64,000 nt of DNA from Oleiharenicola lentus (GTDB taxonomy: Bacteria; Verrucomicrobiota; Verrucomicrobiia; Opitutales; Opitutaceae). The position numbers were made by a program, and so were the translations under genes. The stretch is taken from NCBI RefSeq assembly GCF_004118375.1, contig NZ_SDHX01000002.1, forward strand, positions 186,001 to 250,000. Direction: 5' to 3'. The notes beneath the pieces were generated by a model. The model was given only the letters and a program-made list of their open reading frames with translations. It searched no databases and was not told the origin of the DNA. Positions 23,834-34,281 of this stretch are shown here, one piece after another; position 1 is the first letter of the stretch, and each line of letters starts with the position of its first letter.

Positions 23834-24571
23834 CGCACGGCCCGTGCGCCTAACCAGACACGATCCACCGCCTCCGGCTCCCCCGCGACGGAACCCTCCC
23901 GCGGTTTTTACCGGTTAGTTAACCCGCCTGTTTCACACCCGGAGGTGAGAAATAGGCGCCCGATCGGGCCGACATTGTCGGGGCTAACCGCGACGAAGTC
24001 GCTTTTGCCAAAGGCAAAACGGATAATTCTGATTCAAAGTCTTTTTATTGGTGAAATATTCTGGTTAAGCCCGCGCAGGCCGGAGGGTGTAGACCGGAGG
24101 GCGGAGGCCGGAGGCGGGAGAATGGAGAAGGGGGAAAGGAGAAGGGACAACCTGTGGTGCAAGCGAATCGGGGCTGGCGTCTAGGGTCTAGGGTCCGCCA
24201 CTCAGCGACCCTTGTTACTAGATACTTTCCCCTTGTTACTTCCTTTCGATCTCCCGTCTCCCTCCTCCCTTCTCCTGCGCGCACCGCGCCACCGTCCACC
24301 GTCCGACCGTCCACGCCGCTTAGCGAGTTTAAGTTCGGAGTTGAAGTTGAAGTGTAGCGATACGACCGAGAATCTTGCTTTGGTTGTCCGTTGTCCAATC
24401 TCCGGCCTCCGATCTCCGGTTTCAGGTTTCAGGTTTCCGATCTCCGTTCTCCGATCTCCGGACTCCCTTCTCCCTTTTCCCTGCTACTTTCTCCCGGCGC
24501 GCCGCGCGCTTCGCGCGGCGCCATTCCTGATTGTCGAAGGCCCCGAATCCTGTACAACTGGCCTTATCTGC
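23834..24571. repeat. 738-bp spacer with repeats before the exosortase gene
   Basis: It contains a complete five-hairpin element (23919-24068), a purine tract (24085-24150), CTAG-rich phrases (24178-24235), CCACCGTCCACCGTCCGACCGTCC phrases (about 24290-24318), CTCCGATCTCCGG/TTCAGGTTTC phrases (24395-24480) and a GC-rich hairpin (24501-24519). Exosortase promoter motifs are not obvious. No gene is seen. Confidence 0.65.
23919..24068 (+). repeat. Five-hairpin element (family A), complete copy
   Basis: The 150-bp unit starts TTAACCCGCC and ends CTGGTTAA. Its three central stems are CCGAC-att-GTCGG, GCGAC-gaa-GTCGC and TTTTGCC-aaa-GGCAAAA. Loops differ from those of the copy at 30373 while stems are the same. 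Confidence 0.88.
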
Positions 24572-25471
24572 ATGTCTTCCGTAACCCCGCCCCTCGATGA
24601 ACGCTCCGGACTGCGGCGTTTTGTCATCGCCGCCCTCATCCTGTTGGCGGTCTTCGCCCTGCCGCTCTTCCACGTCGTCCGCTTTTCCCTCCAGAGCGAC
24701 CTTTACTCGTTCATCGTCATCGTGCCGTTCGTCAGCGCCTACCTGGTCTGGATTGAGCGGACCCGGCTCACCCCGGCGGGCACCCCCGTGAACCGACGGT
24801 GGGCCGCCGCCCTCGCGGTCATGGGTCTGGCTCTGGCGACCCTGGCCCTGGTGATTCAGCAGGGAGGAGGCAAACATGCCGGCGTCGATGCCCTGGCCTT
24901 TTCCATGTATGCCTTGGTGGGGCTGTTGGGCGCCGCGGCCTGTTTCTTTCTGGGTCGCGCCACCCTCAAGGTCATCGGTTTTCCGCTCGCGTTCCTCGTC
25001 TTCCTGGCCCCCTTCCCCGTCGCGGTGGAAGTGGGCATTGAAACCGTGCTGCAGCATGGCTCCTCCTGGACCGCCCACCGCTTCTTGGATCTGGCGGGTA
25101 TGCCGGTGTTTCGCGAGGGCACGTATTTTCAACTCCCCGGTTTTGCGATGCAGGTGGCGCCCGAGTGCAGCGGCATCCGCTCCACCCTGGCGCTCTTTCT
25201 CACCAGCCTGGTGGCGGGCCGGATGTTCCTCCGCTCGCCCTCAAACCAGCTGATCCTCGCGGCCGTGGTCCTGCCCCTCGCCCTCGTGCGCAACGGATTC
25301 CGCGTGTTTGTCATCGGCGAACTCTGCGTGAAGATCGGTCCCCACATGATCCACTCCTGGATTCACCGCCAGGGCGGACCGCTTTTCTTTACCCTCTCCC
25401 TCATTCCGTTTTCCCTGATCCTTTTTCTGCTCCTGCGCCGCGACCGCCGCGCCATACCTTCCGCCCCATGA
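24572..25471 (+). CDS. Exosortase
   Basis: The 299-residue integral membrane protein has about eight membrane segments and the exosortase catalytic residues. Cys199 lies in VAPECSGIRS, Arg244 in LVRNGFRVF and His265 in HSWIHRQGG. Exosortases are transpeptidase-like enzymes that process proteins with PEP-CTERM-type C-terminal signals at the inner membrane. The likely substrate class here is VPDSG-CTERM, represented by the gene at 29622. The frame extends far upstream through pyrimidine repeats, so the ATG at 24572 (MSSVTPPLDERSG) is taken as the start. The stop overlaps the start of the next gene (ATGA), so the two are coupled. Confidence 0.92.
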   Translation: MSSVTPPLDERSGLRRFVIAALILLAVFALPLFHVVRFSLQSDLYSFIVIVPFVSAYLVWIERTRLTPAGTPVNRRWAAALAVMGLALATLALVIQQGGGKHAGVDALAFSMYALVGLLGAAACFFLGRATLKVIGFPLAFLVFLAPFPVAVEVGIETVLQHGSSWTAHRFLDLAGMPVFREGTYFQLPGFAMQVAPECSGIRSTLALFLTSLVAGRMFLRSPSNQLILAAVVLPLALVRNGFRVFVIGELCVKIGPHMIHSWIHRQGGPLFFTLSLIPFSLILFLLLRRDRRAIPSAP

Positions 25472-28400
25472 CCGCACTCCGCCGTTCCCTGCCCTGGTTA
25501 GTTGCAACCGCCGGCCTTGCCCTGCTGCTGGCGGGTTGCTCGCCCGCCGGAAAGCAGGAAAAACTCATGGCCGGCGCCGACCGGCATTTCGACGCCCACG
25601 ACTTTGATCGCGCCGAGGTGGAATATCTCAACTTGCTCAAGGCCGACCCACAGAGCGGCCGCGCCATTGCCCGGTTGGGCCTGATCTACTCCGCCCAAGG
25701 CCGCAGCAGCCGCGCCGTCGCTTTCCTCATGCGGGGTCGTGAGCTCCAACCGAACGATCTGGCGGTGCGTCTGCGGGTCGGCCAGCTTAACTTGGTTACG
25801 GGCAAACCGACCGAGGCCCGCGCGGAAGCCAATTTCATCTTGGATCGCCAACCGCAGGACGCAGAAGCCCCGTCTTTGCTGGTCGCCACACTAACCAAAC
25901 CGGAAGAGGCCGAAACCCTTCGTCAGCGCCTGCTGCGCCTGCCCGCGCCAGCCCCGGACCGCGCGCCGGTGCTGACCGCCCTCGCCACCCTGGAACTTCG
26001 CCTTGGGAAACCGGCCGAAGCCGAGGCGTTTCTCGCTCGCGCCAAGGCGGCCGATCCGGCTTTTGCCAACCTCTACAACCTCCTGGCCGCGCTTGCCCTG
26101 GCCCGCAAGGATCTCTCCGCGGCGGACGCTGCCTTCAAGGAAGCAGCCCGACTCTCCCCGCCCCGATCTCCCCAACACCTCCAATACGCCCAGTTCAAAG
26201 TCCGCTCAGGCGACCTGCCGGGAGGCATAAAACTCCTGGAGCAAATCACCACCAAGACACCGGATTATCTGCCTGCTTGGCTTGCGTTGGCGGAGATCAG
26301 CCTGATGCAAAACAAGCTGGACGACTGCGCCGCCCAGCTTGAGCGGGTGCTTGGCCGCGATGCCCAGAATCTTGAGGCCTCGATTCTTCAGGGGCGTCTG
26401 CTCGCGCTGAAGGGCGACCCGGCCAAGACCATCGCCCACTACGAACGACTGGCCGGGCAGTATCCCCGCCTCCCGCTGATCCAGCAGGAGCTAGGTCGTG
26501 CCTATGCCGTAAGCGGTGAGGCCACCAAGGCGATCAACACGCTCAACCAAGCCCTGGCGCTGGCCCCGAATTCACCCGAAATTGCCCTGATGCTGGCCCA
26601 GCTCCAAAACCGCAAAGGCGACCGCAACGGCGCCATAGCGCTACTGCGCCGCACCGTGGAGCAACGGCCCAACTTTACCCCGGCTTTGGTGCTGCTTGCG
26701 GACATCTATCGCGCCCAAGGCAACCTGGACGAGTCCCTGAGCATTTATCAGCAGCTGGAAAAGCAGGCTCCCGAAAACGCTCCGCTCACCCTGGCCTTGG
26801 GTCAGGTGCTGACCCAGCAACGCCGGATTCCGGAAGCCCGCGCCGCCTTCGAGAAAGCCTTTGCGCTGACCCCCGACAGTCCCGCCCCGCTCGAGCAACT
26901 CGTAAACCTGCGTCTGCTGGAAAGAAAGTTCCCCGAAGCCATTGCGTTGGTGAACACGGAGGTCGCCAAAAATCCCACCCTCGCAGGCAACGGCCAGCTG
27001 CTGCAGGCCAAGATCCAGCTGGCCCAAAACAACCAGAGCGCCGCCGAAACGCACCTGAAGCAGGCCATTGAGCTCATGCCCGAGTCGCCGACGGCCTATT
27101 TCCTTCTCGCCGGGATTCTCAGCCGCACCAACCGGCAAGAAGAGGCCCTCCAACAGCTCAACGAGGTCCTGACGCGCAATCCCAAGGAGGTGACCGCCCT
27201 GATGCTGGCCAGCGTGATCCAGGACCAGAAGGGCAACTACCCGGCCGCCCGCGAAGGTTACGAAAAGCTGCTGGCGATCAATCCGCAGTCGGTGATAGCA
27301 CTCAACAACCTGGCCTACCTGCTCTCGGAACGATTCAAGGAATGGGACAAAGCCTACGACTATGCCCAGCGCTCCCGGCAGCTGGCACCGGACAATCCAC
27401 ATAACGCCGACACTCTCGGCTGGATTTTGGTCCGCCGGAAGCAATACCTCCGCGCCCGAGGCCTGCTGGAAGATGCCGTCGCCAAGCTCCCGGAAGACGC
27501 CGAGGTCCGGTTCCACCTCGGGTTGGCCTGCTACCTGATGGGCGACGAACCCGCGGCCCGCACCGCGTTGGAACTGGCGCTCAAACAGCATCCGGCCGAC
27601 GCAGCCTGGAAACCCGCCGCGCAGAAAGCCCTGGCCCTGCTCTCTCTCAACCCCGAGGCCGTCACCGCCGCGGACCGGCCGCGCCTGGACCAAGCCTTGG
27701 CGGAAAAACCCGATGACCCCGTCGCCCTGATCCGCCTCGCCGCCCTGCTGGAACGCGAGGGCAAAATCGACCAGGCGGTGGCGACCCTGGAGACCTCCCT
27801 CAAGACCCATGACCAAAGCGCCGGCACCCTCATGTTGCTCGCCCGCCTGGAAAGCCGCCGACAGAATGCGGCCAAGGCGATGGAACATGCTCGGGAGGCC
27901 CGCAAACTGGCGCCCGATGATCCCGAGGTGGCGCGTTCCCTGGCGCGCTTCGCGTTTCAGAACCGGGATTTCACCTGGGCCGCGAGCCTCCTGCAGGAGG
28001 CCGCTCGGCGCATAACCGATTCCCCGGATCTCCTCTACGAGCTCGGTCTGGCCGAATACAGTGTCGGCCGGGTGACGGAAGCCCGGGAGGCCCTACGCAA
28101 GGCTCTCGACCTCGCGGCCCAAAGCCCGCTCAACCTCTTTGCCCAGAAAGCGGAGGCCACCCGCTGGTTGGAATTTATCACCCGCACCGACCCGGCCGTG
28201 GCCGCGCGCGAGCAGTCCTCGATTGACGCCGCCTTGTCCAACGAGCCTCGGTTCGCCCCAGCATTGGCGGCCCGGGCGGCGCTGCAACTCAGCCGGGGGG
28301 AAATCGCGGCGGCCCGCGAAACCTGTCAGACCCTCCTCACGATCTATCCGGATTTTGTTCCCGCCCAACACCAGCTCGTGATCATGGGGGCGAATTTACG

Positions 28401-28710
28401 GGAATACAACCAGCCCCTCTTCGATCTGGCCCTGAAAATCCGCCCGCAATTTCCCCGCGATCCGGCGGTGGCCAAGACCCTGGGCCTCCAATCCTGCCTG
28501 AAGAAGGAATATGCCCGCGCCGTGCCGCTGTTGAAGGAAACGGTGGCGGCGAATCCGGCCGACGCCGTCGCCTGGTATTTTCTGGCCCAGGCCCAACGCG
28601 GGCTGAATTCCGCAGACTTTACTGCCTCGCTGGAGAAAGCACTCTCCTCCGGCCTCTCGGAACCCAGCCTGCTCACCGAAGCCCGCAAGCTCCAGGCCCA
28701 GGGCAAGTAG
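25468..28710 (+). CDS. prsT: PrsT-like TPR-repeat lipoprotein of the exosortase system
   Basis: The 1080-residue protein has a lipoprotein signal (LLLAGC, Cys24) followed by tetratricopeptide repeats over nearly its whole length (for example AEVEYLNLLKADPQSGRAIARLGLIY, and many AxxxLxxALxLAPNSPE units). PrsT proteins are long TPR lipoproteins found beside exosortases in loci that export exopolysaccharide and sort PEP-CTERM proteins. They may scaffold envelope complexes. The start overlaps the exosortase stop by 4 nt. An open frame begins upstream at 25165, but it lies inside the exosortase gene and lacks a signal sequence. The symbol is by resemblance and context. Confidence 0.82.
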   Translation: MTALRRSLPWLVATAGLALLLAGCSPAGKQEKLMAGADRHFDAHDFDRAEVEYLNLLKADPQSGRAIARLGLIYSAQGRSSRAVAFLMRGRELQPNDLAVRLRVGQLNLVTGKPTEARAEANFILDRQPQDAEAPSLLVATLTKPEEAETLRQRLLRLPAPAPDRAPVLTALATLELRLGKPAEAEAFLARAKAADPAFANLYNLLAALALARKDLSAADAAFKEAARLSPPRSPQHLQYAQFKVRSGDLPGGIKLLEQITTKTPDYLPAWLALAEISLMQNKLDDCAAQLERVLGRDAQNLEASILQGRLLALKGDPAKTIAHYERLAGQYPRLPLIQQELGRAYAVSGEATKAINTLNQALALAPNSPEIALMLAQLQNRKGDRNGAIALLRRTVEQRPNFTPALVLLADIYRAQGNLDESLSIYQQLEKQAPENAPLTLALGQVLTQQRRIPEARAAFEKAFALTPDSPAPLEQLVNLRLLERKFPEAIALVNTEVAKNPTLAGNGQLLQAKIQLAQNNQSAAETHLKQAIELMPESPTAYFLLAGILSRTNRQEEALQQLNEVLTRNPKEVTALMLASVIQDQKGNYPAAREGYEKLLAINPQSVIALNNLAYLLSERFKEWDKAYDYAQRSRQLAPDNPHNADTLGWILVRRKQYLRARGLLEDAVAKLPEDAEVRFHLGLACYLMGDEPAARTALELALKQHPADAAWKPAAQKALALLSLNPEAVTAADRPRLDQALAEKPDDPVALIRLAALLEREGKIDQAVATLETSLKTHDQSAGTLMLLARLESRRQNAAKAMEHAREARKLAPDDPEVARSLARFAFQNRDFTWAASLLQEAARRITDSPDLLYELGLAEYSVGRVTEAREALRKALDLAAQSPLNLFAQKAEATRWLEFITRTDPAVAAREQSSIDAALSNEPRFAPALAARAALQLSRGEIAAARETCQTLLTIYPDFVPAQHQLVIMGANLREYNQPLFDLALKIRPQFPRDPAVAKTLGLQSCLKKEYARAVPLLKETVAANPADAVAWYFLAQAQRGLNSADFTASLEKALSSGLSEPSLLTEARKLQAQGK

Positions 28711-28739
28711 TCGAGTCGCCCCCGCCCACGCCAAGACTG

Positions 28740-28784
28740 TAGCCCGCCTGTTTCACACCTCTAGGGTGTGAAGAAGGCGGGTTA
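28740..28784. repeat. Mini-hairpin made only of family A ends
   Basis: TAGCCCGCCT and AGGCGGGTTA, with TTCACACC and GGGTGTGAA inside, form a long interrupted stem with a small TCTA loop. These are the terminal repeats of the 150-bp element without its core. It also lies just after the PrsT-like gene, where it could serve as a transcript end. Confidence 0.7.
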
Positions 28785-28897
28785 GAGCGGTTTTGTAGCC
28801 GCGATTGAGTCCCGCATCCGCGGGACGAAAGCGTGGTGAATGGACAGCCAGGTCGTCGCTGCGCTGCTACGAAGCGACGGCTTGATTTAACCCGCCC

Positions 28898-29047
28898 TAA
28901 CCCGGATATTTCACCCCAAGAAAAGACGTTGAATCAGAAATATCCGTTTTGCCTCCGGCAAAGTGACATCGTCGCGGTTAGCCCCGACAAAGTCGGCCCG
29001 ACAGGGCGCATCTTTTCTCACCTCTGGGTGTGAAATATGCGGGCTAA
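28898..29047 (-). repeat. Five-hairpin element (family A), complete inverted copy
   Basis: The 150-bp unit is in the opposite orientation to 30373-30521. Stems on the + strand read TTTGCC-tcc-GGCAAA, GTGAC-atc-GTCGC (one wobble pair) and CCGAC-aaa-GTCGG. Confidence 0.87.
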
Positions 29048-29211
29048 CGCGATCTGAACGATTCTGTGGCCGGATCTAAAAAAGTAGGACGTAGATTCGC
29101 TGCTCTAAGAATGACACATCTCGAAACTTATTTCCCAAGGCTGTCATCCAGCAGCGCAGCGAAGGATCCAGTTTCCGCGCATGGAGAGCGACTAGAGCAG
29201 TTTAAATAGAA

Positions 29212-29290
29212 GTGTAGCCGCTTTGGAGCGCAGCGACAAAGTGGTCGTCCCCTGACCACGCTTTCGCCTGCGGCTCAAGCGCGGCTACGC
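29212..29290. repeat. Palindromic element with GTGTAGCCGC ends
   Basis: GTAGCCGC (29214-29221) pairs with GCGGCTAC (29281-29288). Inner sequence includes GTGGTC...GACCAC. No coding frame. Confidence 0.6.
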
Positions 29291-29559
29291 CTTTTATGAA
29301 AAAAGCTCTAGGGTTCACCCTATTGACTGTAAGAAACACTCCAGTCCGCGTTGCTGTTTTCAACTTAAACTTCGCCCTTAAACTGGCTTCGAAGAAGCCA
29401 TCCGTGCCCCGAAACCTGTAAGCCCGGGCAATATTTCGTCGGATAATCTTACAAATCATCCCGCCCATCGGATGCATACAGAATAATATGAAATTCAAAA
29501 TGATCATTTATCATTCTCTATCTGATTCTTACATTACTTCACCACACATTAAACCCAAC

Positions 29560-29576
29560 TTGGCCCGGCCATTGCT
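29560..29576 (+). promoter_or_regulatory. Sigma-54 promoter of the VPDSG-CTERM gene
   Basis: TTGGCCCGGCCATTGCT has the -24 GG and -12 GC exactly 12 bases apart, as the sigma-54 consensus (TGGCAC-N5-TTGCW) requires. Transcription would start near 29587, giving a 35-nt leader before the ATG at 29622. The sigma-54 activator PrsR is encoded 3 kb downstream. Confidence 0.82.
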
Positions 29577-29621
29577 TACTCAATGGAGTCAGAAGTAACT
29601 TAATCAGTAAACACTACACCT

Positions 29622-30242
29622 ATGAAACTGAACTCACTCCTTAGCTCCCTCGTTCTCGGAGCTACTTTGTCCACTGGCAGCGTTCTCGCCAACACTGTCG
29701 TAGTTGACACTACCCCATTCTCCTACGGAAACGGTGGAGAATTTCTGGCTCAGACCAGCAATCATGGTGATTTTCTCACCTTCTGCGTCGAGAAGAACGT
29801 ATTTTTCACCGAAGGGGCGAATTATTATTACAATATCGACGAAAATACCGTGCTTTCTCAAGGTGATGTAATTTCCAAGGGCACCGCTTACCTCTTTAAT
29901 GCCTTCAGCCGAGGCACTTTGGCGGGCTATTTTGGACCAAACCGCCTTGCTAATGCCGGCCTGCTCCAAAATGCGTTTTGGATGCTCGAAGGTGATTTAA
30001 CCTATGATAACAGCAATCCTTACATTGCGCTGGTCGAGGGGATCTATGGACCGAATGTTATGTCCGATGTAGGCTCTTCTAATGTCAAAGTCGTCAACAT
30101 TTGGAATAATTATAATGCCCAGACCGGCGTATATTCCGGCGACAAGCAGTCGATGCTTATCAGAATTCCCGACTCCGGCATGACCGCCCTCCTGCTCGGC
30201 CTCGGTCTCCTCAGCCTCGTTGCTTTCCGCCGCAAGCTCTGA
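29622..30242 (+). CDS. VPDSG-CTERM surface protein with candidate Cys-Gln thioester domain
   Basis: The 206-residue protein has a signal peptide (1-23, cleaved after VLA) and a C-terminal sorting signal: IPDSG (182-186), a hydrophobic helix (TALLLGLGLLSLVAF) and RRKL. That is the VPDSG-type variant of PEP-CTERM described in Verrucomicrobiota. The body has TFCVEKN (Cys55) and AGLLQNAFWMLEGD (Gln116). This matches the Cys and Gln motifs of thioester-forming surface domains (FC-V/I-D/E and Q-x-A-I/F-W). If the bond forms, the protein could attach covalently to amines or other nucleophiles outside the cell. A sigma-54 promoter precedes it and a terminator follows, so it is a single-gene unit next to prsK-prsR. 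Confidence 0.82.
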   Translation: MKLNSLLSSLVLGATLSTGSVLANTVVVDTTPFSYGNGGEFLAQTSNHGDFLTFCVEKNVFFTEGANYYYNIDENTVLSQGDVISKGTAYLFNAFSRGTLAGYFGPNRLANAGLLQNAFWMLEGDLTYDNSNPYIALVEGIYGPNVMSDVGSSNVKVVNIWNNYNAQTGVYSGDKQSMLIRIPDSGMTALLLGLGLLSLVAFRRKL

Positions 30243-30269
30243 GTCGCTACTCCTTCCGTAGTGTTTAAG

Positions 30270-30301
30270 ACCACGCTCCCTCGGGAGCGTGGTTCTTTTT
30301 T
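30270..30301 (+). terminator. Terminator of the VPDSG-CTERM gene
   Basis: ACCACGCTCC pairs with GGAGCGTGGT around a 4-nt loop (CTCG), followed by TC and a run of six T. It starts 28 bp after the stop codon. Confidence 0.92.
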
Positions 30302-30372
30302 GCCCCCTGCTCGTCAAGCACCGTAAGCACTCAGCTGACCGTAGCAGCCGACTTGAGGAGGCTGGAAGCAAC

Positions 30373-30521
30373 TAGCCCGCATATTTCACACCCAAAAATG
30401 AGAAATATGCGCCCTGTCGGGCCGACTATGTCGGGGCTAACCGCGACCAAGTCGCTTTTGCCGAAGGCAAAACGGATATTTCTGATTCAACGTCTTTCAG
30501 TCGTGTGAAATATCTGGGCTA
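30373..30521 (+). repeat. Five-hairpin element (family A), reference copy
   Basis: The 149-bp unit has inverted ends (TAGCCC...GGGCTA, then ATATTTCACAC...GTGTGAAATAT). Inside are five stems: GCATATTTC/GAAATATGC (30379-30387, 30402-30410), CCGAC-tat-GTCGG (30422-30434), GCGAC-caa-GTCGC (30443-30455), TTTTGCC-gaa-GGCAAAA (30456-30472) and GATATTTC/GAAATATC (30475-30482, 30507-30514). It encodes no protein. It looks like a MITE or REP-type element that folds as single strand. Confidence 0.9.
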
Positions 30522-30607
30522 GCCCGCATATTTCACACCCAAAAATGAGAAATATGCGCCCTGTCGGGCCGACTATGTCGGGCTAACCGCGACCAAGTCG
30601 CTCCACC
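30520..30607 (+). repeat. Five-hairpin element (family A), truncated tandem copy
   Basis: It shares the TA at 30520-30521 with the preceding copy and repeats its first ~80 bp almost exactly, then breaks off in the second triloop stem. Confidence 0.8.
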
Positions 30608-30814
30608 CGAAGGGCGGACGGACCATTGGCTGATTGGATAGCTCACCCGTGTGAATGTCCGGGATAGAGCCTAGTGACTAGAAACTAGCGCCTAGCCCCC
30701 TTGCTTTCATTTCGTGTGTTTGGTGTGTTTCGTGGTGACCCCTGAATGGTTTGCCATGACTCTTTCCCTGGCCCTTAGAATAACCGAGCTGAACCTACCC
30801 GCCGCCATCCCCTC

Positions 30815-32923
30815 ATGAGCCTGGAAATCATCCTCGATTATGTCGGCGTCCTGCTGGCCGGCCTGCTGGGCTGCGCGGCCCTCCTCCGGGCCAACGGCTC
30901 CGCGGATCGCTGGGCTTTTGCCGTCGGCATGCTGCTCCTGGCCGCGGAACGGCTCTGCGCCGGCCTCGCGGTCCAGCGCGCCGACCTCCCGCCGGAAGTT
31001 TTCAAGTGGCAGGTGTGGCGCCTGCACCTGGTGGCGTTGCTCCCGGCCCCCTGGCTCGCCTTCAGTCTCACCTACGCCCGGGGCAACGCCCGCGAATTCC
31101 TCCGCAAATGGCGCTTCGGCCTGCTCGCCGCCGCGCTGCTGCCCCCGGTGGTGGCGCTGGCTCTGCGCCAGGACCTCATCATCTCCAGCCACGCCCTGGG
31201 CGACAGCCAGACCCTGTTGCTGCGGCTGGGCCTCGCCGGAACCGCAATGCAGCTGGCCCTGCTGGCCGCCGCCATCCTCATCCTGGCCAACCTTGAGCAC
31301 ACCTTCCGCTCGGCCATGGGCACGGTCCGCTGGCGGGTCAAATTCATGCTCATGGGCGTGGCCGTCATCTTCCTCGTGCGGCTGTTTACCACGAGCCAGC
31401 ATCTCCTCTTCCGCAGTCTCGACCCCCGATGGGACGTACTCAACGCCGGTGCCCTCCTCGTGGGCATGACCCTAATGGTCCGCTCCCTCCTGCGCACGGG
31501 CCGCTTCCACCTCGACATCCATCCGTCCCACTCGGTGCTGCACGGCTCGATGACGGTGGTCCTGGTGGGCGTCTATCTCCTGCTCGTGGGCGTGCTGGCC
31601 CGGATCGTGTCCACTCTGGGCGGCGATGCCTCGTTCACGCTGAAGTCCCTCATCGTGCTGCTGCTGCTCGTGCTGCTCGGCATCCTGCTGCAATCCGACC
31701 GGCTCCGCATGTATCTGGGCCGCTTCGTCAGCCGCCACTTCCAGCGCCCGGAACACGACTACCGCACCGTCTGGCGCAAGTTCACCGAGGGCACGGCCTC
31801 CCGGGTGGAACCGGCGGAATACAACCGGGCCGTTGTGAAACTGGTCGCCGAGATCTTCCAGTCGCTCTCGGTCTCCCTGTGGGTGGTGGACGAACGGCAG
31901 GAATTCCTCCGCCTCGGGGCCTCGACCAGCCTCGACGAACACCTGGTGCGCGAGATCCAGCCGACCGCCACCGAGTCCGCCGTGATTCTGGAACAAATGC
32001 GCACCCATCCGGCCCCGGCCGACTTTGAAAAGGAGCCCGGGGCCTGGGCCGGGGTGCTGCGCCGTTGCCATCCGGATGAATTTCACAAGGGCGGCACCCG
32101 GGTGTGCGTGCCGGTGATGTCCGGCCGCGAGGTGCTGGCCCTGCTCGTGCTCGGCGACCGGGTGGGCGGCACGGCCTTCACGCTCCAGGATCTTGATCTG
32201 ATGAAATCTATCGGCGACCAGGTCGCCTCCGGCCTGCTCAACGTCCGCCTCTCGCAGCGCCTGCTGCAGGCCCGCGAGCACGAGGCTTTCCAGACCATGG
32301 CGACGTTTTTCGTCCACGACCTCAAGAACGCCGCCTCCACCCTCAACCTGATGCTGCAAAACCTGCCCGACCACTTCGATGATCCGGAGTTTCGCCAGGA
32401 TGCGCTCCGCGGGGTCGGCAAGTCGGTGGCGCACATCAACCACCTCATCAGCCGCCTCACGCAGCTGCGCTCCGAGCTGAAGATCACCCCGGTCGCCTCG
32501 GACCTGAACGATCTGGTGCGCGGCATCCTCGGCTCCTTCGCCGCGGAAAAGGAATTCGTGGTCGAGCCCCGGCTCGAGGATCTGCCCGCGCTGCCCCTCG
32601 ATCGCGACCAGTTCGGCAAGGTCATCACCAATCTCGTGCTCAACACCCGCGAGGCCGGCGCCACCCGCCTGACGCTGTCCACGCGCCGCGCCGGCGCCTG
32701 GGCGGTGCTGGAAACCGCCGACAACGGCGGCGGCATCCCGCCGGAATTCCTGAGCCGCTCGCTGTTCCGGCCGTTTCAATCGACCAAGAAAAACGGGCTG
32801 GGCATCGGCATGTTCCAAAGCAAAATGATCATCGAGGCGCATGGCGGGCGGATTTCGGTTGAAAGCACCGTTGGCCAAGGCACGTCTTTCCGCATCTTTC
32901 TCCCGCTGACACCCCTGACCTGA
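30815..32923 (+). CDS. prsK: PEP-CTERM-system sensor histidine kinase PrsK
   Basis: The 702-residue protein has an N-terminal membrane region (about eight helices within residues 1-290), a GAF-like domain (about 325-480), a dimerisation/phosphoacceptor segment FFVHDLKNAAS (His501), and a C-terminal ATPase domain (DNGGGIPPEF and NGLGIGMFQSK). Membrane region, GAF and HDLKN in this order match PrsK of the exosortase/PEP-CTERM system. It should phosphorylate the response regulator encoded next, with which it overlaps by one base (TGATG). The signal sensed is unknown. Confidence 0.9.
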   Translation: MSLEIILDYVGVLLAGLLGCAALLRANGSADRWAFAVGMLLLAAERLCAGLAVQRADLPPEVFKWQVWRLHLVALLPAPWLAFSLTYARGNAREFLRKWRFGLLAAALLPPVVALALRQDLIISSHALGDSQTLLLRLGLAGTAMQLALLAAAILILANLEHTFRSAMGTVRWRVKFMLMGVAVIFLVRLFTTSQHLLFRSLDPRWDVLNAGALLVGMTLMVRSLLRTGRFHLDIHPSHSVLHGSMTVVLVGVYLLLVGVLARIVSTLGGDASFTLKSLIVLLLLVLLGILLQSDRLRMYLGRFVSRHFQRPEHDYRTVWRKFTEGTASRVEPAEYNRAVVKLVAEIFQSLSVSLWVVDERQEFLRLGASTSLDEHLVREIQPTATESAVILEQMRTHPAPADFEKEPGAWAGVLRRCHPDEFHKGGTRVCVPVMSGREVLALLVLGDRVGGTAFTLQDLDLMKSIGDQVASGLLNVRLSQRLLQAREHEAFQTMATFFVHDLKNAASTLNLMLQNLPDHFDDPEFRQDALRGVGKSVAHINHLISRLTQLRSELKITPVASDLNDLVRGILGSFAAEKEFVVEPRLEDLPALPLDRDQFGKVITNLVLNTREAGATRLTLSTRRAGAWAVLETADNGGGIPPEFLSRSLFRPFQSTKKNGLGIGMFQSKMIIEAHGGRISVESTVGQGTSFRIFLPLTPLT

Positions 32924-34281
32924 TGAAACCCACACTGCTGATCGTCGATGACGACGAGGAAATCCGCACGCAGATGAAATGGGCGCTGACCCGTGACTAC
33001 GAGATCGTCCAGGCGGGAGACCGGGCGGGCGCGCTGGAAGCCGCCCGCACCGCGCGGCCCGCGGTCGTGCTGCTGGATCTCGGTCTGCCCCCGCATCCCA
33101 ACTCGCCCGACGAGGGCCTCGCCACGCTGACAGAACTGCTCGCCGCCGACCCGCAGACGAAGGTCGTGATCATCTCCGGCCAGGGGGAAAAATCCAACGC
33201 CCTGCGCGCCGTGGGCGCAGGCGCCTATGATTTCCTCGGCAAACCGGTGGAAATGGAGGAGCTGAAGCTCCTCCTGAAACGCTGCTTCCACGTCGCGCTG
33301 CTCGAGCGCGAATACCGCGAGATCCAGCAGAAGATCCTCGGCGAATCCTTCGACGGCATCCTGGGCGGCAGCACGCGCATGCAGGCCACGTTCGAAGCCA
33401 TCCGCAAGGTGGCGACCGTGGACGCCCCGGTCTTGATCCTCGGCGAAAGCGGCACCGGCAAGGAGATGACCGCCCGCTCCATCCACCAGCGGAGCGCGCG
33501 GCGCAACGGTCCGTTCGTCGCGATCAATTGCAGCGCGATTCCCGAGTCGCTGATGGAAAGCGAACTATTCGGCCACGAAAAAGGCGCCTTCACCGGCGCC
33601 CATGCCCAGCGCAAGGGCCGCATCGAGAGCGCGCACGGCGGCACCCTCTTCCTCGACGAAATCGGCGAAATCCCGCCCCCCATCCAGGTGAAGCTCCTCC
33701 GCTTCCTGCAGGAGCGTGTCATCGAGCGCGTGGGCGGCCGGCAGGAAATCTCGGTGGACACCCGCGTCCTCGCCGCCACCCACGTGGACCTGAAGAAGGG
33801 CATGGCCACCGGCTCGTTCCGCGAGGACTTGTTCTACCGCCTGGCCGTCGTGCAGATCGTACTGCCGCCGCTGCGTGAACGCGAAAATGACATCGTCCTC
33901 CTCGCCAACGCGTTTCTCCAGCAGTCCGCCAAGGAGACCAGCAAGAACGGTCTGGCCTTCTCCCCCGAGGCCACCCGCGCCATCCTGCGGCATGCCTGGC
34001 CGGGCAACGTGCGCGAACTCCAGAACCGGGTCCGCCGCGCCGTCATCATGGGCGGCACGAAACGTCTCACCGCCCAGGATCTGGAACTTGAAGCCGCCGC
34101 CCCCAACGGCTCGACCCTGAAAGAAGCCCGCGAAGCCCTGGAGCGGGAGATGCTCCAGCAATCACTCCGCCGTCATGCCGGCAAAATCACCGCCGCCGCC
34201 AACGAGCTCGGCATCAGCCGCCCCACCTTCTATGAGCTGATGGACAAGCTCGGCATCCAGAAACCCGAGAAGCCGGAGTGA
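32923..34281 (+). CDS. prsR: PEP-CTERM-system sigma-54 response regulator PrsR
   Basis: The 452-residue NtrC-type regulator has a receiver domain (VDDDEE near the start, phospho-Asp in VVLLDLGLP), an AAA+ domain with Walker A GESGTGKE, and the sigma-54-contacting GAFTGA loop (221-226). A Fis-type helix-turn-helix closes the C-terminus (AANELGISRPTFYELMDKLGI). It activates sigma-54 promoters when phosphorylated, presumably by PrsK. The sigma-54 promoter of the VPDSG-CTERM gene 3 kb upstream is the natural candidate target. A perfect 18-nt GC palindrome (34287-34304) follows the stop codon. Confidence 0.92.
   Translation: MKPTLLIVDDDEEIRTQMKWALTRDYEIVQAGDRAGALEAARTARPAVVLLDLGLPPHPNSPDEGLATLTELLAADPQTKVVIISGQGEKSNALRAVGAGAYDFLGKPVEMEELKLLLKRCFHVALLEREYREIQQKILGESFDGILGGSTRMQATFEAIRKVATVDAPVLILGESGTGKEMTARSIHQRSARRNGPFVAINCSAIPESLMESELFGHEKGAFTGAHAQRKGRIESAHGGTLFLDEIGEIPPPIQVKLLRFLQERVIERVGGRQEISVDTRVLAATHVDLKKGMATGSFREDLFYRLAVVQIVLPPLRERENDIVLLANAFLQQSAKETSKNGLAFSPEATRAILRHAWPGNVRELQNRVRRAVIMGGTKRLTAQDLELEAAAPNGSTLKEAREALEREMLQQSLRRHAGKITAAANELGISRPTFYELMDKLGIQKPEKPE

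Follow-up and report, generated by a model that had tools for sequence, protein, structure and literature searches.

A candidate PrsK-PrsR-RpoN regulon of VPDSG-type exosortase substrates in Oleiharenicola lentus

Gene content and promoter elements of the locus

The window, a 64,000-nucleotide (nt) stretch from the verrucomicrobial genome of Oleiharenicola lentus (genome G000), carries on one strand and within a single locus the genes for an XrtC-like exosortase, the TPR protein PrsT, a VPDSG-CTERM protein that is the presumed exosortase substrate, the sensor histidine kinase PrsK and the response regulator PrsR (Table 1). This arrangement had been proposed in a preliminary description of the sequence and holds, with the exosortase scoring below the cut-off of the XrtC model. 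The substrate gene, referred to below by its first position, 29622, is preceded by a sigma-54 promoter and, farther upstream, by a 17-nt box, and this two-part promoter recurs before most VPDSG genes of the same genome and before sorting-signal genes of other genomes.

Table 1. Features of the exosortase locus in the window
Feature	Coordinates	Strand	Details
XrtC-like exosortase	24530..25471	+	start codon assumed; XrtC model TIGR04151 272.3 bits (cut-off 300, not reached); general exosortase model TIGR02602 113.2 (cut-off 105.55, passed)
PrsT, TPR protein	25483..28710	+	TIGR02917 361.6 (cut-off 312.2); start assumed, open frame begins upstream
17-nt box CGTCGGATAATCTTACA, candidate PrsR (enhancer) site	29437..29453	+	12/13 consensus bases
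Sigma-54 (-24/-12) promoter TGGCCCGGCCATTGCT	29561..29576	+	11/12 consensus bases; 107 nt 3' of box
VPDSG-CTERM protein, presumed exosortase substrate	29622..30242	+	206 aa; TIGR03778 28.5 bits (cut-off 22); PF18205 25.0 (cut-off 25)
Intrinsic-terminator-like stem-loop, 3' of substrate gene	30269..30294	+	11 pairs, 7 G-C, T-rich tail
PrsK sensor histidine kinase	30815..32923	+	TIGR02916 366.3 (cut-off 300); GAF and HATPase domains
PrsR response regulator, sigma-54 activator	32923..34281	+	TIGR02915 601.9 (cut-off 502.6); receiver, sigma-54 interaction and Fis-type helix-turn-helix (HTH) domains

The sigma-54 promoter lies within TTGGCCCGGCCATTGCT at 29560-29576, with TGGC starting from 29561 and TTGC reaching to 29575, a GG/GC spacing that fits sigma-54; sites were scored against the consensus TGGCACG-N4-TTGCW. 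Between the -12 C and the ATG of 29622 there are 46 nt (29576-29621), and sigma-54 transcripts start about 12 nt after this C, so the leader would be about 35 nt long, in agreement with the exactly spaced site and the leader length first proposed. The string TGGC-N7-TTGC occurs eight times in the window where 3.55 occurrences are expected (at least eight were seen in 4 of 100 shuffles), and 404 times genome-wide against 178 for the reversed pattern. On its own the sigma-54 string is therefore close to chance, and its significance arises jointly with the 17-nt box upstream.

The box, which was not recognised in the earlier reading and is the stronger signal of the two, was found by comparing the upstream regions of the VPDSG genes of the genome, where it stands about 100 nt above the promoter. 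Its consensus over 32 sites is YGTCGGAANNNYTTACR (18.0 bits), ending at the 3' side in YTTACR, which reads CTTACA in the window. The corresponding promoter consensus over 31 sites is TGGCAY-N6-TGCT (15.4 bits, with GG and GC imposed by the search). A 17-position sequence model of the box was also tried and proved too short, as only the window's own box passed it at E<=10 (150 of 486 candidates scored).

The prsK and prsR genes follow on the substrate strand, as originally described, and the GAFTGA motif noted then is present at residues 221-226 of PrsR. Together with the Walker A sequence GESGTGKE at residue 174, the sigma-54 interaction domain and the Fis-type HTH domain, it completes the features of a sigma-54 activator (bacterial enhancer-binding protein). 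The genome encodes one rpoN and one PrsR above the model cut-off. The recognition helix has the form SRP[TA]xY in every one of the 14 PrsR sequences that were read, and three comparable other activators of the genome have a different helix; the literal GAFTGA was not found in locus L145.

Gene 29622 itself had been labelled a thioester protein, a label that is not supported, as Pfam at E<=5 detects nothing in the protein beyond the sorting signal PF18205 and, weakly, PEP-CTERM. It is probably transcribed on its own, as a single-gene transcript, because the terminator-like stem-loop follows it; the region has four terminator-like sites where shuffles have 2.9, and this one has the longest stem. 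The gene and its promoter are also bracketed by repeats (28740-29051 and 30372-30622), comprising a perfect direct repeat of 64 nt (copies at 30372 and 30519) and, 5' of the gene, inverted copies such as 28897-28962 with 30457-30522 (66 nt, 88%) and 28947-29015 with 30403-30471 (69 nt, 84%), with a further copy at about 29014-29046. The repeat core was absent from the other stretches of this genome that were examined, and the repeats could represent a small mobile element carrying or flanking the gene.

Specificity of the two-part promoter in the O. lentus genome

The distribution of the two elements was assessed on the nine VPDSG genes scoring above the TIGR03778 cut-off, on ten of the 11 PEP-CTERM genes found (C2:1373, at a contig end, was left out) and on 261 control genes drawn from 380 kb of sequence in 19 stretches, open reading frames (ORFs) with less than 330 nt upstream being dropped. 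The module was called where the scores of a box and a sigma-54 site added up to 19 or more and the gap between the two was 80-132 nt. The box, at 10 or more of 13 consensus bases, was present at all nine VPDSG genes and at none of the ten PEP-CTERM genes, whose best forward score was 9. Box and promoter together were present at 8/9 VPDSG genes, 0/10 PEP-CTERM genes and 1/261 controls (Fisher 1.3e-13 for VPDSG versus control genes and 1.2e-4 for VPDSG versus PEP-CTERM genes). The proposal that sigma-54 sites are enriched before sorting-signal genes at large thus stands for the VPDSG genes, in combination with the box, and fails for the PEP-CTERM genes, making the regulon narrower than the full set of VPDSG and PEP-CTERM genes first envisaged. 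The genome has two further exosortase homologues, C1:892042 and C1:2183547, one of them above the model cut-off and the other below it, which perhaps serve the 11 PEP-CTERM proteins, moduleless where testable.

This joint specificity bears on whether a housekeeping sigma factor transcribes 29622 and the sigma-54 match is accidental, a reading in keeping with the near-chance frequency of the string alone in the window. Set against it are the contrast between VPDSG and control genes and a simple sigma-70 scan of 28700-31000, which returned three sites, none of them upstream of 29622, and it is considered very improbable.

Beyond the genes tested, the relaxed box pattern YGTCRGN6TKACR matched 65 sites genome-wide against 26 for the reversed pattern, and since it fits six of the nine VPDSG boxes, regulon members may be missed by it. 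Twelve of the 65 had a sigma-54-like site downstream; the six with sums of at least 19 all belonged to VPDSG genes, and the other six summed to 16-18. A weaker module (9/13 and 9/12) precedes 1303169, a VPDGG gene scoring below the cut-off. Two strong boxes without a promoter, C1:1504505 (before a frame that is Fur-like by eye) and C1:1310141 (divergent from the VPDGG gene 1309353), may be chance occurrences.

Among the VPDSG genes, C2:57818-57970 (minus strand) encodes a protein of 54 aa, barely more than a signal peptide and a sorting tag, behind a full box and promoter. Near-leaderless transcripts are predicted for several VPDSG genes, among them this one, C1:1161730 and C1:3043281, with the ATG 13-17 nt after the -12 C (the second ATG was used for C1:3043281).

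Spacing between box and promoter

Spacing was compared across 31 promoters, nine from the O. lentus genome and 22 from relatives, the latter searched for gaps of 80-132 nt only. The spacers range from 84 to 129 nt (mean 100.9) and fall into clusters, with eight at 84-88, 12 at 96-101, seven at 107-110 and four at 120-129 nt, and none of the 31 at 89-95, 102-106 or 111-119 nt. A periodicity of 10-12 nt as strong as this was matched by 0/20000 uniform and 1/20000 normal simulations, in one of which L120 and L131 were dropped as near-duplicates; the nominal p values for a helical period, which are post hoc, are about 3e-4 at 10.5 and 2e-5 at 11.5. The spacers would accordingly step by about one helical turn, as expected of an activator bound to one face of the helix.

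The module in other genomes and its association with PrsR

An independent test was made with the consensus unchanged on 51 stretches of other genomes, namely 44 of the 45 loci with XrtC relatives (mostly Verrucomicrobiota; L142, apparently the same contig as G177, was left out) and seven stretches of genomes G223, G139, G168 and G177, with spacers limited to 80-132 nt and ORFs with less than 250 nt upstream dropped. The module marked 22 of 506 ORFs, comprising 15 of the 20 with a regex-defined VPD tag and seven of the 486 others (Fisher 1.1e-19). All 22 end in a sorting-signal-like tail, as judged by eye for the seven, whose tails are VADGG (twice), VPESG, VPDDA, VPDRG, TPDAA and TPDGG. A pattern search of five more genomes (G288-G292) returned 48 boxes. 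For eight of them the sigma-54 site scored 9/12 or more, and each of these eight stands before a sorting-signal-like gene; three others had an 8/12 promoter and stood before a PEP-CTERM gene, an unrelated frame and no frame, respectively. The pattern search gave none in G292, whose locus L107 was positive in the independent test through a box outside the pattern.

Of 288 Verrucomicrobiota genomes, five had PrsR (E<=1e-145), and these five were also the ones with VPDSG genes (E<=1e-4); four other genomes of the window's genus had neither at these thresholds. Relaxing the threshold to E<=0.001 in the 24 genomes searched added G140 alone, with a single weak VPDSG match, no PrsR and no module. The module is present in G139 (2/2) and G168 (1/1). 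At 11 of 45 loci the stretch with the XrtC relative also contains PrsR, many of the stretches ending at contig ends.

This co-occurrence is informative as to whether the VPDSG genes form a sigma-54 regulon in which an activator other than PrsR binds the box. Other such activators exist in the O. lentus genome, where five further proteins match the PrsR model at E<=1e-30, all below its cut-off. Binding by one of these is nevertheless unlikely, given that PrsR and VPDSG genes share the same five genomes, that the recognition helix is conserved in PrsR and different in the comparable activators, and that the box also precedes PEP-CTERM genes in G288, a Syntrophaceae genome with PrsR.

The 34 VPDSG matches of G223 are mostly an expanded, partly fragmentary family. 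Two VPDTGPG paralogues of this genome, found by inspection, have a box (11/13) and a promoter (11/12) 98 nt apart. In the stretches C1:534001-552000 (L284) and C1:1924001-1943000 (L285) of G223 the matches are partly arrayed and many are truncated, and in L284 a hairpin, AACCCTGATAG..CGATCAGGGT, occurs in five copies, each before such VPDSG genes; the family with its hairpins looks like a duplicating or cassette-like one.

Such expansion raises the question of whether duplication of a gene family has simply carried box and promoter along, with no part for them in regulation. The substrates do form families, repeat-like in G223, and the 31 promoters include near-duplicates (L117/L120 and L113/L131). 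The upstream regions within the O. lentus genome are, however, dissimilar by eye outside the two elements, the proteins differ outside the tag and the spacers differ by helical steps, so that passive inheritance is regarded as highly unlikely.

Proposed regulon

Taken together, these results make it very probable that a PrsK-PrsR-RpoN regulon switches on the substrates of the neighbouring exosortase. PrsK would sense a signal and phosphorylate PrsR, which would bind the 17-nt box 84-129 nt upstream of the TGGCAY-N6-TGCT promoter, at distances that change by roughly one helical turn at a time. Looping of the DNA would then bring the GAFTGA ATPase domain of PrsR to open a promoter held by RpoN polymerase, and VPDSG-type substrates of the adjacent exosortase (29622 and, at other loci of the genome, seven further genes) would be turned on and their products processed by the XrtC-like enzyme. 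The suggestion that PrsK/PrsR/RpoN logic operates on a VPDSG substrate is in this way supported in silico, by the specificity within the genome (8/9 versus 1/261), by the 22 of 506 ORFs marked elsewhere and by the same five of 288 genomes.

Several observations weigh against the regulon as proposed. The own-genome test is partly circular, the consensus having been derived from the genes tested, and the periodicity was recognised post hoc among related sequences. Within the O. lentus genome, C1:1083089 has a box and no correctly spaced promoter, the sub-cut-off VPDGG gene 1309353 has neither element on its own strand, and several genes have their ATG at 13-25 nt from the -12 C and would give nearly leaderless transcripts. 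In the independent test, five of the 20 regex-defined substrates fail (L114, L116, L133, L162 and L166), L114 being a near miss at 9/13 and 11/12. The module is at none of the three VPDSG genes of G177, and in G223 the box is at three of the 34 matches, with a promoter for one of these at an unusual 201 nt, and ten other matches have a sigma-54-like string and no box.

It is also slightly more likely than not that PrsK/PrsR, the XrtC-like exosortase and the box with its sigma-54 promoter form one co-inherited unit of Verrucomicrobiota, in which the promoter marks sorted proteins beyond the present tag model and the PEP-CTERM class is kept outside the regulon. The variant tags indicated by the promoter are VADGG, VPESG, VPDDA, VPDRG, TPDAA, TPDGG, APDAT and VPDTGPG. 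Nearly all occurrences of the two-part promoter precede genes of sorting-signal proteins, so the promoter can be used to look for substrates missed by tag models; its phased spacing opens looping activation by PrsR to a direct test.

Comparison with known systems

Within the open-licence PMC literature, no described regulation was found for VPDSG proteins, which does not prove its absence, and no paper on PEP-CTERM and RpoN in Verrucomicrobiota. The locus can be compared with the XrtC/VPDSG-CTERM system (TIGR04151, TIGR03778), which provides the best exosortase model and a tag above cut-off here, the exosortase itself reaching 272.3 against 300. Control by PrsK-PrsR and RpoN is known from Zoogloea, as retold in PMC9012009. 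For Aquincola tertiaricarbonis, PMC9850573 reports a pepA start mapped by primer extension and dependent on RpoN1; that gene resembles 29622 in its TGGCAC / CTGCTT promoter, in prsT beside the substrate and in an upstream enhancer-like sequence, and differs in belonging to a betaproteobacterial PEP-CTERM system.

The closest comparison is with proteobacterial PEP-CTERM genes, before which Haft et al. (2006; PMC1569441) place a 17-nt motif 1 that has TTTACA at its 3' end and lies 32-92 nt (mean 62.8) upstream of a sigma-54 promoter, the motifs being confined to Proteobacteria among the genomes studied. The present locus is alike in having PrsK, PrsR and PrsT, all above their model cut-offs, a 17-nt element upstream of a -24(GG)/-12(GC) site, exosortase substrates as targets, long upstream regions and a probable one-gene transcript. 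Compared by length and 3' end only (CTTACA here), the box fits the printed motif 1, the presumed PrsR site. One PEP-CTERM gene of G288 has the box twice, and the nearer, slightly degenerate copy is 63 nt away from the promoter, a distance equal to the mean spacing in that paper. In contrast, the present system is found in Verrucomicrobiota, its targets carry a VPDSG-type tag, with all ten PEP-CTERM genes tested lacking the module, and 23 of the 31 spacers, including that of 107 nt in the window, exceed the printed maximum of 92 nt. Because of these differences in spacing and tag, the locus is classed as a variant rather than a plain member of the system of Haft et al. The regulator-substrate pairing of proteobacterial PEP-CTERM genes is thereby extended to another phylum, tag and promoter geometry: the kind of system is already known, and the phylum, the sorting tag and the longer, phased spacing are new.

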